Shown here piece by piece: positions 55,193 to 61,902 of a DNA stretch of 64,000 bases. The stretch's first letter is position 1. Each line of letters opens with the position of its first letter. The notes under the pieces were generated by a model. It was not told the origin of the DNA, did no database searches, and saw only the letters and a list, made by a program, of their open reading frames with translations. Both the position numbers and the translations under genes were made by a program. Source of the stretch: Pseudomonas tumuqii (GTDB taxonomy: Bacteria > Pseudomonadota > Gammaproteobacteria > Pseudomonadales > Pseudomonadaceae); contig NZ_JAAOJA010000001.1 in NCBI RefSeq assembly GCF_013184545.1, forward strand, positions 558,001-622,000. The letters are read 5' to 3'.

Positions 55193-55945
55193 TCAGTCTG
55201 GCGTTGTGCCTGTATCTGCTCGAGTTGTGAGGCTGAGGGCCGACGCGAGGCTCGGCCGGTACAGCAGCAGGCGGTAGCAGCCCAGGCAGATCAGCCAGTC
55301 GAACAGCGCGGTCCACAGGTTGTGCGAGAAGAAGTGTGCGCCCTGCAGCATGCGTCCGACCGAGAAAGTGATGCCCAGGGCGAGCGCTATGGCGAGCGCT
55401 GATCTGGCCATGCGCGAGTGGCGGTCGCGCAGCACGAAGAACAGCGCAAACAGCGAGAAACCCGTGCCAGCGTGACCGCCGGGCCAGCAGCGCCCAGGCT
55501 GCTCGGTCGCTGTGCGGGTGCTGAGCAATGGCGTGTAAGTTTCCTCGCCACCGAACTCGCTGAGGCTCCAGGGGCAATGCACGCCGGTCAGATTCTTCAG
55601 CGGCTTCACATAGCTGGTCGACAGCCCCATCGCCAATACCAGGTAGCCCAGCGGTCGGCGCCATGCCCGCCAGCGGCCTAGCAACAGGCTCAGCACGAAA
55701 CCGGCAATGGCCAGCACGCCGATGACGATCACCGCCTGCTTGGCACGATCATGCAGGAAGTCTTCGAGAAACCAGCTATGTCGACCAATAAAGCCGGCCT
55801 GCGGGTCGTAGGCCCAGTGGGCGATGGCGAAGTCCAGCGCGGTCGGGTCAGCCAGCAACAACAGCAGCATCAGGGCGAGGGGCAGGCCAAAGCCCAAGTG
55901 GAAGTTGAACGGCATCGATGTGGCTGGGTGGCGTTCAAAGTGCAT
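55193..55945 (-). CDS. PAP2-family membrane phosphatase, variant motifs
   Basis: The 250-residue protein has several membrane helices and belongs to the PAP2/type 2 phosphatidic-acid phosphatase superfamily. The three motif regions are recognisable but altered: KNLTGVHCPW, CWPGGHAGTGF with PGGH for PSGH, and GRMLQGAHFFSHNLW with His where the third motif usually has Asp. It probably removes a phosphate from a lipid or lipid A-like substrate in the envelope. The ATG at 55945 overlaps the end of the LTA-synthase-like gene by 11 bp, so the two are an operon. Confidence 0.82.
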   Translation of the reverse strand: MHFERHPATSMPFNFHLGFGLPLALMLLLLLADPTALDFAIAHWAYDPQAGFIGRHSWFLEDFLHDRAKQAVIVIGVLAIAGFVLSLLLGRWRAWRRPLGYLVLAMGLSTSYVKPLKNLTGVHCPWSLSEFGGEETYTPLLSTRTATEQPGRCWPGGHAGTGFSLFALFFVLRDRHSRMARSALAIALALGITFSVGRMLQGAHFFSHNLWTALFDWLICLGCYRLLLYRPSLASALSLTTRADTGTTPD

Positions 55946-57941
55946 GGGCGGGATCCTCGGCTTGTGGCTGCACTTGCGCCGGAGCGGCGGCGAGTCGTTC
56001 GCTGTCAGTCGCACCTGGCTGCTGCCAGTCGAGCAAATGGTGGCTGAAGTCGTAGCTGGCCCCCTGGTAGTAGGTGATGTTGCGCTTGACCAGCGGATCG
56101 CTGGCCGTGGCCCTCGATTCGTGGCTGGCGCCTAGGGCGTCATCGTGACGACGCATGCTCTTGCGTGGGCTGAGAATCGCCAGATCATGCCCGTCGAACA
56201 GGCCCAGGTGTTGGTAATTGCCAATCAGGGCGCGGCCTGGTGCGGCATCGGCGCGCAGTACATTGCGGCCAAAGAAGGTCGAGGTGTAGTCGACATTGAG
56301 CAGGCCCAGCAAGGTCGGAGCCAGGTCGATCTGGCTAGCCAGTCCGGCATGTTCGCCTGGCTCGATAAAACCCGGTGCGTAGATGAACAGCGGGATATGG
56401 TAGTTGGCTAGCGGCAGGTCTTCGGTACCGGCGCTGCCAGCGGTGTGGTCGGCGACGAAGACGAACAGGGTGTTGGCAAACCAGGGTTTTTGCCGCGCCT
56501 GCTCAAGGAACTGGCCGATGGCATGGTCGGTGTACTTGACCGCGCCTTCGCGGCCATCGCCCGATGGGATATCGATACGTCCGCTCGGGTAAGTGTAGGG
56601 CCGGTGGTTGGAGGTGGTCATCAGCTGCAGATAGAACGGCTTGCCGGCGGCATGGTCGGCGTCGGCCAGTTTCAAGGTTTGGCTGTAGAGGTCTTCATCG
56701 GACATGCCCCAGGCATTCTTGAAGTGGATGTCCTGCTCGGCAACGCTGCTCTGATCGACCACGCGGTAGCCGTTGCCGCTGAAAAACGCGTTCATGTTGT
56801 CGAAATAACCGCGTCCGCCATAAACGAAAGCGCTGTCATAACCGAGTGCCTGGAACTGTTGGCCGAGGCTGGCGAAGCCGCTCTCGCGGCCAATCCGTTT
56901 GACGATGGAGCGCCCTGGCGTCGGTGGAATTGACAGGCTGATGGCTTCCAGGCCGCGGTCGGTACGGGTTCCGCTGGCATAGAACTGGCTGAAAAACAGG
57001 CTCTGCTGCCGCAGGCTATCGAGGTTCGGGGTGAGATCGCGCGAGTCGCCGAAGCTGCCCAGGTACTTGGCGCTGAGGCTCTCAATGGTCACCAGCACCA
57101 CATTGCGGCGCTGCACCTGGCCGGGGTTGTCGATCACCCGGCGAATATCCAGAGGGTCGCTGCCGATAAAGCGTGCATTGGGCTCGCCAAGCTCGGCGCG
57201 CAACTGCTTGCCGATTTCGTTCTGCTCGAGGGCGGCATAGAACTGCGGGTAATCCAGCTCATTGTTGCGAAAGGCGGCAAAAAATTGGTAAGGCCCGTTG
57301 CTTGCCAGTTCGCGCTGGTAAGCATTGCCATCTGAGCCGCGGGGGAAGTCCTGGTCGAGCAGCAGGCTGCTGACGCAGGCCGTCAGGACAAACCCGGCCG
57401 CCACCCATGTGCTATCCCGCCAGCTCAACAGCGGTGCGTTCAGGGCGGCGCTCGTGGCCTTGCGCAAGAGCACGGCAGCAACCACCGCAATGACGGCAAG
57501 AGCCGCCAGCAGCGGGTAGATCGGATAAGACTCGAGGATGTTGTTGATTACCTCGTCGGAGTACACCAGGTAGTCCACGGCGATAAAGTTGAAGCGCACG
57601 CCGAACTCGTCCCAGAACAGCCATTCCGCCACTGCGGTAAACAGCATGGCAAACAGGCTGACGGCTACTACGGCATGGAGCATGCCGCGGTGCCAGCGCT
57701 GCTGCCAGATGCGCCGGGGGCAAAGCAGCAGGTAAAAGGCCAGCGGCAGTGCTGCGTAACACACAAAGCCCAGGTCATAGCCCAGGCCGGTGGCGTATAA
57801 CCGGGCGAGTTGGCTCAGGCCGAGAGCCGCATCGCCTAGGTGACCGAGCAGCAAGGCACTGCGGGTCAGGGTAAAAAGCGTCAGCCAGGCCATTAGAATC
57901 AGGGCAAGGTAACGCAGTTGAGCAAACTTCAAGGCTGGCAT
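55935..57941 (-). CDS. LTA synthase/sulfatase-family membrane phosphotransferase
   Basis: The 668-residue protein has five membrane helices in the first ~220 residues and a large periplasmic alkaline-phosphatase-fold domain. Its core motifs are NVVLVTIESLSAKYLG (metal site), SGTRTDRGLEA with the nucleophile Thr (about 327), TTSNHRPY and FVADHTAG. This is the LtaS/EptA superfamily, which transfers phospho-headgroups from lipids. Pseudomonas makes no lipoteichoic acid, so the acceptor is probably LPS or a periplasmic glucan. The start at 57941 has a weak CAGGAT site. It is divergent from colR. Confidence 0.85.
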   Translation of the reverse strand: MPALKFAQLRYLALILMAWLTLFTLTRSALLLGHLGDAALGLSQLARLYATGLGYDLGFVCYAALPLAFYLLLCPRRIWQQRWHRGMLHAVVAVSLFAMLFTAVAEWLFWDEFGVRFNFIAVDYLVYSDEVINNILESYPIYPLLAALAVIAVVAAVLLRKATSAALNAPLLSWRDSTWVAAGFVLTACVSSLLLDQDFPRGSDGNAYQRELASNGPYQFFAAFRNNELDYPQFYAALEQNEIGKQLRAELGEPNARFIGSDPLDIRRVIDNPGQVQRRNVVLVTIESLSAKYLGSFGDSRDLTPNLDSLRQQSLFFSQFYASGTRTDRGLEAISLSIPPTPGRSIVKRIGRESGFASLGQQFQALGYDSAFVYGGRGYFDNMNAFFSGNGYRVVDQSSVAEQDIHFKNAWGMSDEDLYSQTLKLADADHAAGKPFYLQLMTTSNHRPYTYPSGRIDIPSGDGREGAVKYTDHAIGQFLEQARQKPWFANTLFVFVADHTAGSAGTEDLPLANYHIPLFIYAPGFIEPGEHAGLASQIDLAPTLLGLLNVDYTSTFFGRNVLRADAAPGRALIGNYQHLGLFDGHDLAILSPRKSMRRHDDALGASHESRATASDPLVKRNITYYQGASYDFSHHLLDWQQPGATDSERLAAAPAQVQPQAEDPAHAL

Positions 57942-58011
57942 CGTATGATCCTGCAGCGGAAAGATGCTGTGCACTCTGCTCATCTGGATGTGAGGCGAAT
58001 GTAGAAACTGC

Positions 58012-58027
58012 GTGAAAAAAACGTCAA
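58012..58027 (-). promoter_or_regulatory. Candidate ColR box before the LTA-synthase-like gene
   Basis: The minus strand reads TTGACGTTTTTTTCAC, oriented toward the LTA-synthase-like gene 70 bp away and 33 bp upstream of colR on the other strand. It differs at one of 16 positions from the motif at 60030-60045. It fits the pyrimidine-rich, TTTTTCAC-ending ColR consensus described in P. putida, as I remember it. Confidence 0.65.
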
Positions 58028-58059
58028 CTCGTTTCGACGCGCTCGAGGATTGAACGGAC

Positions 58060-58743
58060 ATGCGCATTCTTGTGGTGGAAGACAACCGGGATATTCTGGC
58101 CAATATTCTCGATTACCTGACCCTGAAGGGTTACAGCGTCGACTGCGCGCAGGATGGCCTGAGTGGGCTGCACCTGGCGGCCTCCGAGCATTACGACCTG
58201 ATCGTGCTGGATATCATGCTGCCGGGCATCGACGGCTATCAGTTGTGCAAGCGCCTGCGCGAGGATGCCCGGCGCGATACGCCAATCATCATGTTGACCG
58301 CGCGCGATGCCCTCGACGACCGCTTGAAGGGCTTGAATGCCGGGGCCGACGATTACCTGCTCAAGCCGTTCGCCCTGTCCGAACTGGTGGCGCGCATCGA
58401 AGCCATCCTGCGCCGCAGCCAGGGCAGTCGCACGCGCCAACTGCAAGTCGGCGAGCTGCTCTATGACCTCGATACCCTGCAGGTCAGTCGCGCCGGCCAG
58501 CCGCTGAAGCTCAACCCCCTGGGCTTGAAACTGCTCGCGGTGTTGATGCAGCGCAGTCCGGCAGTGGTACGCCGCGAGGCCCTCGAGGAGGCGCTGTGGG
58601 GCGACGATTGTCCGGACAGCGACAGCCTGCGCAGCCATGTCCATCAACTGCGCCAGGTGCTCGACAAGCCCTTTGCCACACCGCTGCTGCACACTGTTCA
58701 CGGTATTGGTTATCGCCTGGCGGAGTCCGCCGATGGTGTCTAA
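58060..58743 (+). CDS. colR: Response regulator ColR
   Basis: The 227-residue OmpR-family regulator has a receiver domain with acidic pocket (ED 7-8), phosphoacceptor Asp51 and Lys in LLKPFALSEL. A winged-helix DNA-binding domain (VVRREALEEALWGD, SDSLRSHVHQLRQ) follows. It overlaps colS by 11 bp. Neighbours (methyltransferase, InaA, DgkA, PAP2 and LTA-synthase-like genes) match the ColR locus of pseudomonads, where it controls envelope-protection genes in response to excess metals. Confidence 0.88.
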   Translation: MRILVVEDNRDILANILDYLTLKGYSVDCAQDGLSGLHLAASEHYDLIVLDIMLPGIDGYQLCKRLREDARRDTPIIMLTARDALDDRLKGLNAGADDYLLKPFALSELVARIEAILRRSQGSRTRQLQVGELLYDLDTLQVSRAGQPLKLNPLGLKLLAVLMQRSPAVVRREALEEALWGDDCPDSDSLRSHVHQLRQVLDKPFATPLLHTVHGIGYRLAESADGV

Positions 58744-60001
58744 ACAGCCGTTGCTGAGGCGCATCGTGATCGCCTTCGTGCTGATGACCCTGGTGGTCAG
58801 CGGGGTGTTCTCGTTGAGCATCGTGGCGATCGTGCACTTCGTCGAAGAACACCTGGTGTCCCAGGAGCTCGATCGTGAACTGAGCAGCGTTATCGCTGAA
58901 GATCTGCGCCGCGGCGAGCGGCCCCGATTGGACTCCAGTACGCGTTTTTTTGCTTCACATCTGCCCGAATATCAGGCGCCCCAGCAGTTCGCTGAAGTCG
59001 CCGACGGATTTTCCGAGGTGGTCGAGGGCGACCAGGCTTTTTATTTGTTCAAGCGCAGCGACAACGCCCAGTCCTTCATGCTGGTGCAGGAGCAGCATGA
59101 GTTCGAAGCGCGCGAGCAGGTGCTGTTCAATGTGGTGCTGGCCGGTTTTCTGCTCAGCGTACTGGCGGCCTGGGGCCTCGGCTGGTGGGTGGCGCGACGG
59201 GTGATGGCGCCGGTGATCCGTCTGGCCAATCAGGTGCGCCATCGCGATCAGTTGCACGCCCTGGCGCCGGCTCTGGCCCCGGAGTATCCGGACGATGAGG
59301 TCGGTCATCTGGCAGCGGCCTTCGACAGTACCCTCGGCCAGTTGCGCCATTCCCTGGAGCGCGAGCGGCTGTTCACCAGCGACGTCAGCCATGAACTGCG
59401 GACGCCCTTGATGATTATCGCCAGCTCCTGCGAGTTGCTCGCGGAGGCGCCCAATCTGGATGCGCGCCAGCGTGAACAGGTACAGCGCATCGGCCGCGCG
59501 ACCGAGGAAATGCGTGACCTGGTGCAGACCTTTCTGATCCTCGCGCGGGCCAACCAGCAGGAGTCGAGCCAGGGTGGCAGTGCAACCCTGGTCGCGGTCG
59601 CGGATGAACAAAGCAAGCGCTGGGCGCCATTGATGCGCGAGAAAGGTCTGCAGTTCCAATTGATCGAGCAGGGCAAGGACGAGGCCCAGTACAACCTGAC
59701 GTTCCTGCGCACGGTGATCTCCAATCTGTTGCGCAATGCCTTGCACTACACCGAGCAGGGCACGGTGCGGCTGATCCTGGAAAACGGCAGCTTTCGCGTG
59801 GAAGACAGCGGCGTCGGTATCCCCCAGGATCAGCAAGAGCAGATGTTCCAGCCCTTCGTGCGCGGCGCCCAGGCGCGTGGTGAAGGCTTGGGGCTGGGCT
59901 TGTCTCTGGTCAAACGGATCTGCATGCACCAGGGCTGGACGGTGCAGGTGCATGATCTACCGCCGCAGGGCAGTGTGTTCGAGGTCAGTCTGCACCGCTG
60001 A
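58733..60001 (+). CDS. colS: Sensor histidine kinase ColS
   Basis: The 422-residue kinase has two membrane helices (about 10-33 and 131-152) around a ~100-residue periplasmic sensor domain. A HAMP-like segment, the DHp domain with SHELRTPL (His220), and the HATPase domain (NLLRNAL, VEDSGVGIPQ, GEGLGLGLSLV) follow. The periplasmic part includes EARE at residues 125-128, an ExxE motif of the type that senses Zn and Fe in P. putida ColS. Other acidic residues lie in FVEEHL and FSEVVEGD. It is coupled to colR. Confidence 0.88.
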   Translation: MVSKQPLLRRIVIAFVLMTLVVSGVFSLSIVAIVHFVEEHLVSQELDRELSSVIAEDLRRGERPRLDSSTRFFASHLPEYQAPQQFAEVADGFSEVVEGDQAFYLFKRSDNAQSFMLVQEQHEFEAREQVLFNVVLAGFLLSVLAAWGLGWWVARRVMAPVIRLANQVRHRDQLHALAPALAPEYPDDEVGHLAAAFDSTLGQLRHSLERERLFTSDVSHELRTPLMIIASSCELLAEAPNLDARQREQVQRIGRATEEMRDLVQTFLILARANQQESSQGGSATLVAVADEQSKRWAPLMREKGLQFQLIEQGKDEAQYNLTFLRTVISNLLRNALHYTEQGTVRLILENGSFRVEDSGVGIPQDQQEQMFQPFVRGAQARGEGLGLGLSLVKRICMHQGWTVQVHDLPPQGSVFEVSLHR

Positions 60002-60029
60002 TGGCGTCGCCGCCTGGCGTGCTGCGTAC

Positions 60030-60045
60030 TTCACGTTTTTTTCAC
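60030..60045 (+). promoter_or_regulatory. Candidate ColR box before the methyltransferase gene
   Basis: TTCACGTTTTTTTCAC in the 117-bp gap after colS is oriented toward the methyltransferase-inaA-dgkA operon. Its partner is at 58012-58027. Confidence 0.65.
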
Positions 60046-60118
60046 ATCCTTTTGACGGGGGCTTGATGCTCCGCTGGTTAATTTGGCAGCCATGGATTCC
60101 TCACGGGAGCAGGTTGTC

Positions 60119-60808
60119 ATGTCTAGCGCCAAACCGATCGAATTGGACTTCTCGCACAAATACGACCGCGAGCACGCCCGTCAGTATCTGCAAAAGCATC
60201 AGGATGGCCTGGCGCGCCGGTTGTCCCACTGGCGCGACGAACAATTGGCCCGGTATGCCTTGAAGTTGGCGGGCGAGCCTGATCTGCTGCTCGACCTGCC
60301 GTGCGGTGCCGGGCGCTTCTGGCCGCTGCTGGCCGAGCAGCCGAACCGGGTGATCCTCGCGGCCGACAATTCGGCGGACATGCTGGCGATTGCCATGGCC
60401 GGGCAACCGGCAGAGGTGGTGGCCAGGGTAAAACCCTTTCAGACCTCGGCCTTCGCCATCGAGCTAGGCGATAACGCGGTCGACAGTATTTTCTGCATGC
60501 GCCTGCTGCATCACATCGCCGACCCCGAGCATCGCCTGGCCATGTTGCGCGAGTTGCACCGGGTGACCCGCGATACCCTGATCGTCTCGCTGTGGGTCGA
60601 CGGCAACTACAAGGCCTGGAAACGTCGAAGTCTGGAAGCGCGGCGTGCCGCCGAGGGGCGGGCAGGCGACAATCAGAACCGTTTCGTCATCGCCAGGTCG
60701 ACCATTGAGGCGGAGTTCAAACAGGTCGGTTTCGACATCCTCGGCCATCAGGATTTCCTCCCTGGCTACGCCATGTGGCGGGTCTACGTACTGCGCAAGG
60801 GCAACTGA
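60119..60808 (+). CDS. SAM-dependent methyltransferase of the ColRS locus
   Basis: The 229-residue protein is a class I methyltransferase. Motif I is LLLDLPCGAGRFWPLL near residues 56-71, the acidic adenosine site is AADNSADML, and motif II-III-like stretches are in VDSIFCMRLLHHI. The substrate is not known; its operon partners act on the envelope, so a lipid or LPS substrate is possible. The start at 60119 follows GGGAGCAGG. inaA begins 1 bp after its stop. Confidence 0.85.
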   Translation: MSSAKPIELDFSHKYDREHARQYLQKHQDGLARRLSHWRDEQLARYALKLAGEPDLLLDLPCGAGRFWPLLAEQPNRVILAADNSADMLAIAMAGQPAEVVARVKPFQTSAFAIELGDNAVDSIFCMRLLHHIADPEHRLAMLRELHRVTRDTLIVSLWVDGNYKAWKRRSLEARRAAEGRAGDNQNRFVIARSTIEAEFKQVGFDILGHQDFLPGYAMWRVYVLRKGN

Positions 60809-60809
60809 G

Positions 60810-61517
60810 ATGAGTAGCCTGATTGCGTTGGCGCCGACCGAGCAGGTGCCCAGCACCTTCGAGCGTTGGTGGCAGACCCGGGGTGAGTGGGTCGAGGCGC
60901 CCAATCAGCGCCGTGGTGGCGAGAGCGGTGTGCAGCGCCTGCATAACCAAGGCGGGCGCTGGTTGTACCTCAAGCGCCAGACCGGGCACTTGCATCGTTC
61001 CTGGATGTACCCCTTGGGCAGGCCCACGGTATTGCGTGAGTTGCAGGCGTTGCAGGCACTGGAACGGCTCGGCATCCGCGTGCCGAAGGTGGTGTATGGC
61101 GCGGCGCGCAAACAGGCCGGCCAGTGGCGTGCGCTGTTGGTGACCGAAGCCCTGGAGGGCTTCATCAGCCTGGATCAGTGGTACGCCGGCCAAGCGCCGC
61201 AGTGCTTCGACAGCCAACTCAATCGCTGCATGTTGCAGCAACTGGCCGCGACGCTCAGTCGTTTGCACCGGGCCGGCTGGCAGCATGGCTGCTTGTATCC
61301 CAAGCACATCTTTATCAAGGCTCACGCCGCAGGAGAGGGCGTTGGGGTCGAAGTGGCGTTGCTCGATCTGGAGAAAAGCCGGCGCCGGCTGTTCGCTCGC
61401 GCGGCTTCGCGGCGTGACATGGGGCAGCTGTTTCGCCACCGTGGCGGCATGCCGCTGGCAGACTGGCAAATCTTGCTCGAGGCCTACCAGCGCCCGGCTG
61501 CTCCTCGTGAAGCCTGA
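60810..61517 (+). CDS. inaA: InaA/WaaP-family lipopolysaccharide kinase
   Basis: The 235-residue protein has a protein-kinase-like fold of the InaA/Kdo-WaaP group. LYLKRQ is the phosphate-site lysine region, GWQHGCLYPKHIFIK is the catalytic loop and LLDLEKSR the metal-binding Asp. Such kinases phosphorylate LPS core sugars. It is in an operon with the upstream methyltransferase and the downstream dgkA. Activity on LPS is inferred from the family. Confidence 0.85.
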   Translation: MSSLIALAPTEQVPSTFERWWQTRGEWVEAPNQRRGGESGVQRLHNQGGRWLYLKRQTGHLHRSWMYPLGRPTVLRELQALQALERLGIRVPKVVYGAARKQAGQWRALLVTEALEGFISLDQWYAGQAPQCFDSQLNRCMLQQLAATLSRLHRAGWQHGCLYPKHIFIKAHAAGEGVGVEVALLDLEKSRRRLFARAASRRDMGQLFRHRGGMPLADWQILLEAYQRPAAPREA

Positions 61518-61530
61518 AGCCGCTGTCACA

Positions 61531-61902
61531 GTGCTCGATGGCAGCACGCTGAAGGGCCAATCCGGCTGGCGGCGCATTGTGCATGCCTTCGGTTATTCCC
61601 GCGCGGGGCTGCTGGCCGCATTCCGGGGCGAGGCAGCCTTCCGCCAGTTGTTGCTGCTCAATGCCGTACTGTTGCCTCTGGCGTTCTATCTGGATATTGG
61701 CAAGGCCGAGCGTGCGCTGCTGATCGGCGTATGCCTGCTGGCGCTGATCGTCGAACTGCTCAACTCTGCGATCGAGGCCACGGTGGACCGCATCTCTCTG
61801 GAGCTGCACCCGCTGTCGAAACAGGCCAAGGATCTGGGCAGCGCCGCGCAATTGGTCACCATGTGCCTGATCGCCGTAGTCTGGGCGGTGATACTGCTGT
61901 AA
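61531..61902 (+). CDS. dgkA: Diacylglycerol kinase
   Basis: DgkA is a small trimeric inner-membrane enzyme that phosphorylates diacylglycerol, recycling it to phosphatidic acid. The 123-residue protein shows the amphipathic N-terminal helix, GEAAFRQLLLLN, and the catalytic-site ELLNSAIEATVDRIS and KQAKDLGSAAQLV with the conserved Glu, Asn and Lys. GTG at 61531 gives the usual length; GTG at 61507, overlapping inaA, is an alternative start that adds 8 residues. Confidence 0.88.
   Translation: MLDGSTLKGQSGWRRIVHAFGYSRAGLLAAFRGEAAFRQLLLLNAVLLPLAFYLDIGKAERALLIGVCLLALIVELLNSAIEATVDRISLELHPLSKQAKDLGSAAQLVTMCLIAVVWAVILL

Follow-up and report, generated by a model that had tools for sequence, protein, structure and literature searches.

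Two probable ColR operators on either side of colRS in Pseudomonas tumuqii and the longer phased element to which they appear to belong

The colRS locus of Pseudomonas tumuqii lies in the 64-kb stretch of DNA analyzed here (the window) and carries two nearly identical 16-bp boxes, one on each side of the regulator genes (Table 1). In all likelihood, each box forms the promoter-distal portion of a ColR operator, and the two operators, one on either side of colRS, would activate transcription outward, as judged from the sequence of the boxes, their position and their conservation in relatives. Matching switches would thus very probably let ColRS turn on the adjoining membrane-remodelling genes. 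Such an operator pair is already known in P. putida, so that the core of this claim is known; beyond the known operators, the analysis describes the operator more fully and adds a promoter rule that can be tested.

Table 1. Features of the colRS locus, in window coordinates.
Feature	Coordinates	Strand	Basis or detail
PAP2 phosphatase	55193..56014	(-)	PF01569
LTA-synthase-like membrane enzyme, Sulfatase-fold	55935..57941	(-)	PF00884
Predicted -10 CAGAGT, LTA-synthase-like/PAP2 promoter	57973..57978	(-)	array position 50-55
Downstream pair, box-1 array	57990..58005	(-)	relatives' alignment
Box-1 array position 34, CTCAC	57994-57990	(-)	
Box-1 array position 23, TCTAC	58005-58001	(-)	degenerate, 3 of 5 letters
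Box 1, ColR-type 16-mer TTGACGTTTTTTTCAC	58012..58027	(-)	pattern scan, YYNASNNYTTTTTSAC fit
Box 1 half-site 12, TTCAC	58016-58012	(-)	
Box 1 half-site 1, TTGAC	58027-58023	(-)	
colR, OmpR-family response regulator	58060..58743	(+)	D at residue 51
colS, sensor histidine kinase	58733..60001	(+)	
Box 2, ColR-type 16-mer TTCACGTTTTTTTCAC	60030..60045	(+)	pattern scan, YYNASNNYTTTTTSAC fit
Box 2 half-site 1	60030-60034	(+)	
Box 2 half-site 12	60041-60045	(+)	
Downstream pair, box-2 array	60052..60067	(+)	TTGAC 60052-60056, TTGAT 60063-60067
Predicted -10 TAATTT, methyltransferase-inaA-dgkA promoter	60079..60084	(+)	array position 50-55
SAM-dependent methyltransferase, PP0903-type by position	60119..60808	(+)	
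inaA-like Kdo/WaaP-family LPS kinase	60810..61517	(+)	PF06293
dgkA, diacylglycerol kinase, one of two genome copies	61507..61902	(+)	PF01219

Results

Both partners of the two-component system are present in the genome from which the window was taken, ColR with D51 and ColS with a TM2-proximal ExxE motif. ColS has a single close match in this genome, the next best reaching 31% identity. Its sequence contains three ExxE motifs, one of which is located at residues 125-128; the sensing motif of P. putida ColS is placed at residues 126-129 (PMC4074579). Pfam domains bear out the gene assignments of the initial annotation, according to which each box faces an operon of its own. The LTA-synthase-like enzyme has 3lxq (VP1736) as its best solved relative, and its NCBIfam matches are far below the cut-offs. 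The same holds for the PAP2 phosphatase, for which lipid A phosphatases are the closest NCBIfam models. We preferred the ATG at 57941 as start of the LTA-synthase-like gene because the alternative at 57983 lies upstream of the predicted -10 hexamer, while the PAP2 gene may start at an inner ATG near 55945. Pairs of colRS-type loci with a common assembly prefix (L037/L042, L041/L057 and L043/L068) were also noticed, and certain genomes thus seem to carry colRS twice, each locus with its own neighbours.

The two 16-mers TTGACGTTTTTTTCAC and TTCACGTTTTTTTCAC were confirmed on opposite strands and differ at one base. With up to three mismatches allowed, the pattern TTSACGTTTTTTTCAC matches the window nowhere else; shuffled windows contained 0.16 matches on average, and the pair occurred in none of 100 dinucleotide shuffles. 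A scan of the whole genome (5,507,209 bases, up to two mismatches) gave three matches, two of which are exact and correspond to box 1 and box 2. The reversed pattern gave two matches genome-wide at the same tolerance, so that it is the exact pair alone that is exceptional. The remaining match, at C1:677316, is inside an inverted-repeat stretch and was dropped. Both 16-mers fit exactly the published ColR consensus YYNASNNYTTTTTSAC, which was drawn from seven DNase I footprints (PMC2689224), and in both of them TTSAC occurs at positions 1 and 12, that is, as direct repeats about one helical turn apart. For the OmpR/PhoB subfamily, direct repeats with 4-5 nt between them are described as typical (PMC2689224). 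The boxes are found in the promoter regions of the counterparts of ColR targets, namely the PAP2-containing and the PP0903-type operons, with a predicted -10 hexamer in place. With their fit to the consensus and positions kept in many relatives, their initial reading as ColR-type sites stands.

The consensus alone performed poorly as a search pattern. It has ten exact places in the genome, the two window boxes and eight elsewhere, and a consensus match alone is therefore unspecific. With one mismatch allowed, 132 matches were obtained compared to 137 for the reversed control, which is no enrichment. The initial annotation had named many random sites in a genome scan as a finding that would speak against it. 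On these counts such a scan does go against the 16-mer consensus taken alone, and we rejected it as evidence either way. Six of the eight other exact places are CTGAG-type sequences resembling a dispersed element; two loci, L007 and L009, were inspected as sequence. Exact copies of its core, SYGAGMGTTTTTTCAC, number 40 in the genome compared to none for the reversed control (for example at 1501-1516 of L013, L017, L023, L026 and L029), and in several of 12 copies inspected the core has GCAGTAG before and CAACCTCT after it. The element resembles the ColR box in its 3' half and confounds searches with the consensus.

For a comparison across relatives we used the best 80 of 149 ColS-neighbour loci together with the window, 81 loci in total. 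Counting boxes with at most two mismatches, 58 of these loci have one next to colR and 68 have one next to colS. Restriction to boxes with at most one mismatch and removal of rows at least 80% identical left 31 colR-side and 32 colS-side rows, window included. In the aligned rows, TTSAC-like half-sites occupy positions 1, 12, 23 and 34, and a -10 hexamer follows at position 50. Half-sites with at least four of five letters are present at position 23 in 24/31 and at position 34 in 22/31 rows on the colR side, and in 29/32 and 22/32 rows, respectively, on the colS side; in 2000 mononucleotide shuffles, none of the 60 offsets exceeded a count of 9. A full set of four good half-sites is seen in 19/31 and 21/32 rows, and the hexamer at position 50 reads [TC]AnnnT in 24/31 colR-side and TAnnnT in 25/32 colS-side rows. 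The same geometry is common to both promoters although the downstream genes differ. An extra half-site further upstream, at position -10 of the array, was not found in these deduplicated rows (1/31 and 4/32). In P. aeruginosa PA7 (L109), both box places have three mismatches. In these relatives, a longer phased element extends from the 16-mer towards the promoter, with the 16-mer as its upstream end, and an account of the operators by the 16-mers is incomplete.

A profile of this longer element, R1, was built from 53 rows and contains no window sequence. Eight of the 61 deduplicated non-window rows had been left out by eye (L103, L105 and L106 on the colR side; L050, L078, L079, L090 and L092 on the colS side); their downstream repeats are absent or shifted in register, and R1 therefore leans to the longer form. 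Searched against the 5.5-Mb window genome, with 150 of 1124 candidates scored, R1 gave exactly two hits at E<=10 (1.5e-12 and 1.7e-6), which are box 1 and box 2. The longer profile is thus specific in this genome; R1 searches score 137-150 first-look candidates per genome and may miss weak sites. A simpler pattern of three half-sites with up to three mismatches matched three times in the genome, always at the two colRS-flanking boxes. Its reversed control likewise gave three matches, and the pattern has the advantage at the 0- and 2-mismatch ranks only.

We further compared the presence of each box with that of the neighbouring genes. Box 1 (at most two mismatches) was present in 52 of the 54 loci with a divergent LTA/PAP2 gene, whereas 6 of the 25 loci without such a gene carried it (Fisher p 3e-11, uncorrected for ancestry; 79 of the 81 loci, two at contig ends being skipped). 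A box serving colR itself would be expected to stay with colR irrespective of the divergent gene, and these proportions differ from that pattern. Box 1 thus tracks the divergent LTA/PAP2 genes rather than colR. The link of box 2 with the methyltransferase/inaA/dgkA genes is weaker (59/65 loci with and 8/13 without these genes; p 0.016, uncorrected for ancestry; three of the 81 loci skipped), the exceptions being eight loci with box 2 and without the usual genes and six with the usual genes and without box 2.

The gene dgkA offers a second promoter type. In the genus sample, a box with at most two mismatches stands before 35 of the 40 dgkA copies that are stand-alone. In 27 deduplicated promoters of this kind, half-sites 1 and 12 are good in all, half-site 23 in five and half-site 34 in none, and TAnnnT is found at position 28 in 26 of them, 22 bp closer than the -10 at position 50. 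The last half-site consequently ends 11 bp before the -10 hexamer in the colRS-flanking and the stand-alone dgkA promoters alike. Upstream of the stand-alone dgkA of the window genome (C22), no box was found, the best candidate within 600 bp having four mismatches; the other copy is in the operon behind box 2. One relative, G008, resembles the window genome in that an operon copy is present and the stand-alone copy has no box. Another genome, G004, has two dgkA copies and has kept the box. The box before stand-alone dgkA is also missing in G012, where no ColR match was obtained at E<=1e-80, and in G003 and G014, both unexplained. In the window genome, ColR-type control of dgkA would accordingly lie on the colRS-linked copy and be off the stand-alone copy, as far as sequence can tell.

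A general rule that dgkA is always under ColR was rejected, given that a near box (at most one mismatch) was found at 12 of 49 stand-alone copies in the family sample. Five of 55 dgkA contexts in that sample are in a methyltransferase/inaA operon and one adjoins colS, classes that were assigned by tblastn with window proteins only. At six loci, dgkA lies downstream of colS with no methyltransferase/inaA detected in between, and the box in front of it has no mismatch in L049, one in L269, two in L045 and three to four in L052, L054 and L082.

Of the 40 genomes in the genus sample, which includes that of the window, 39 match ColR at E<=1e-80, and R1 hits at E<=1 occur in 39; G012 has neither. 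At so lax a threshold, chance alone should give about one hit per genome, so that 39 of 40 with a hit means little and it is the colR-proximal hits that count. By hand count among the places listed, which reach E ~0.43, a hit lies within 3 kb of colR in at least 35 of the 39 ColR genomes and on both sides in at least 19. The genomes without a listed hit at this distance are G003, G006, G013 and G028.

Away from colR, we inspected 20 R1 hits in other genomes (E 2.8e-8 to 2.9e-4), a set that omits at least two stronger G004 hits from the list (contigs C34 and C50). A histidine-phosphatase gene is located downstream of 15 of these hits, followed by a PAP2 gene in eight and an ArnT-like gene, our label for a PMT-family hit, in four. 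The remaining hits precede a DUF347 gene, a small gene with a GreA/GreB-type gene (two hits), a methyltransferase gene and EptA. Gene names derive from a Pfam scan of ten proteins at seven loci and, for the rest, from tblastn to those; the two histidine phosphatases scanned reached 23.2 and 21.2 bits, the cut-off being 21.7. Half-site 12 is good (at least four of five letters) in 20/20, half-sites 23 and 34 in 18/20 each and half-site 1 in 7/20, and therefore the element outside colRS often has three good half-sites, not four. The hexamer [TC]AnnnT at position 50 occurs in 19/20, a feature for which R1 itself selects. One locus of G014 (L213, about 1688-1853) has two divergent R1 hits ~76 bp apart, one of them facing an EptA-type phosphoethanolamine transferase gene. 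At L203 and L209 (about 150-1165), the small gene encodes, in L209, a 118-aa protein with no Pfam match that looks lipoprotein-like by eye, and the following gene with a GreA/GreB C-terminal domain is an unexpected partner for an envelope regulon.

Discussion

OmpR/PhoB-type regulators act at promoters with tandem direct repeats spaced by about one helical turn, the last repeat lying just upstream of the -10 hexamer. The arrays described here share this spacing and this placement of the last repeat, and differ in their TTSAC half-site and in the T-tract of the distal pair. We propose that excess metal would be sensed by ColS, leading to phosphorylation of ColR at D51, and that phosphorylated ColR would bind the TTSAC half-sites 11 bp apart (1, 12, 23 and 34), the last of which ends 11 bp before the -10 hexamer. 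Activation would then proceed outward, to the LTA-synthase-like/PAP2 genes on the left and the methyltransferase-inaA-dgkA genes on the right. A transferase of the LtaS/OpgB type would release diacylglycerol, which DgkA could rephosphorylate, and PAP2, InaA and the methyltransferase may adjust lipid or LPS groups. From what is known of these families, pairing a diacylglycerol-releasing transferase with a diacylglycerol kinase would make biochemical sense. Of this scheme, we infer binding in P. tumuqii, the number of occupied half-sites, the promoter class and the enzyme substrates.

The closest precedent is found in P. putida, where Kivistik et al. (2009) located ColR binding by DNase I footprinting in seven promoter regions, PP0900/colR and PP0903 among them, and found PP0900 and PP0903 to be activated by ColR (PMC2689224). 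Both genes are induced by zinc according to Ainsaar et al. (2014) (PMC4074579). The two systems are alike in the regulator, in the two operator places beside colRS, in the 16-bp consensus and in the kind of targets, PAP2 on one side and methyltransferase-inaA on the other (PMC2689224). They differ in that the window has an LTA-synthase-like gene between colR and PAP2, whereas PAP2 (PP0900) adjoins colR in P. putida, and in the third gene of the right-hand operon, which is dgkA in the window and the hypothetical PP0905 in P. putida; the dgkA controlled by ColR there is PP1636, unlike the colRS-linked copy of the window (PMC2689224). In Xanthomonas, the orthologous pair RaxRH is likewise located beside a divergent gene for a PAP2-type lipid A phosphatase, lpxE, but the partners are eptA and arnT, and the text available to us describes no operator in this neighbourhood (PMC8306577). 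Compared to these descriptions, ColR operators look longer and more regular in our alignments. Searches of the open-access literature yielded no paper describing a longer array for ColR or ColR control of a histidine phosphatase, which is a weak negative.

That the 16-mers are due to chance, or belong to a dispersed repeat ending in TTTTTTCAC, is hardly credible. The dispersed element does share its 3' half with the ColR boxes, and most of the other exact consensus matches are of its type. However, its 5' half is absent from both boxes, the shuffles never produced the pair, both places are kept in relatives, and a profile made without window sequence picks both boxes from the genome. A different question is whether box 1 also, or mainly, regulates colRS; the initial annotation had held an effect on colRS possible, given a distance of 33 bp to colR. 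The proximity holds, the exact figure being 32 bp before the colR ATG at 58060. In many relatives the distance is down to 18-22 bp, box 1 is inside any plausible colR leader or promoter, and it occurs without a detected divergent target in six loci (L079, L093, L097, L103, L105 and L106). On the other hand, the half-sites of box 1 and the -10 hexamer point away from colR, and in L031 and L032, whose ColR is 96-97% identical, the LTA/PAP2 pair and the box are missing together. In the accessible P. putida reports, a fragment in the colR direction gave no clear response to ColR (PMC2689224) and the colR promoter was insensitive to zinc and iron (PMC4074579). An effect on colRS is thus unsupported, and we consider it improbable.

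It is also conceivable, albeit rather unlikely, that each promoter contains only the canonical ColR box of two half-sites and that promoter sequence or weak contacts account for the motifs at positions 23 and 34. The TTGAC at position 23 resembles a -35 element, and the third half-site of window box 1 is poor. Kivistik et al. described two direct repeats and a footprint of 24-26 bp at PP0903 and oprQ, of which the former speaks against a 38-bp array, and an in-phase third half-site (at least four of five letters) is not general in P. putida, being present in three of their seven sites (PP0900, PP0903 and PP2561) (PMC2689224). Yet position 34 (CTCAC/TTGAT) is conserved too, and the distance of 11 bp from the last half-site to the -10 hexamer is the same here and in the two-half-site dgkA promoters. 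A -35 element at 23-28 would moreover leave a spacer of 21 bp to the -10 at position 50, which is too long for usual sigma-70 promoters. At PP3766, the ColR footprint reaches 46 bp (PMC2689224).

Starting from the favoured reading of two outward-activating operators, we tentatively put forward a modular ColR promoter grammar, a joint reading that is possible and that we hold with reserve. Half-sites of the TTSAC type with 11-bp spacing would run upstream from a fixed point 11 bp before the -10 hexamer. Stand-alone dgkA would have two of them (-10 at 28), whereas the operons flanking colRS and a wider set of targets would have three to four (-10 at 50), the wider set consisting mostly of a histidine-phosphatase gene followed by a PAP2 or ArnT-like gene. 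The number and quality of half-sites, and not the 16-mer, would set specificity and strength. Finally, the colRS-linked dgkA would be the copy under ColR-type control in the window genome and, among the relatives, at least in G008, the stand-alone copy having lost this control. We give this joint reading less weight because 13 of the 20 colR-distal hits have a poor first half-site and because of the short PP0903 footprint.

Overall, the published 16-bp ColR consensus alone fails to predict the regulon in the window genome, where at one mismatch it matches no more often than its control, while R1 elsewhere in the genus mostly points to genes of the lipid A/LPS-modification type. A longer phased profile would serve as a practical predictor of the envelope regulon under metal stress, and a simple promoter rule would follow, with the -10 hexamer at 28 or 50 from the box.
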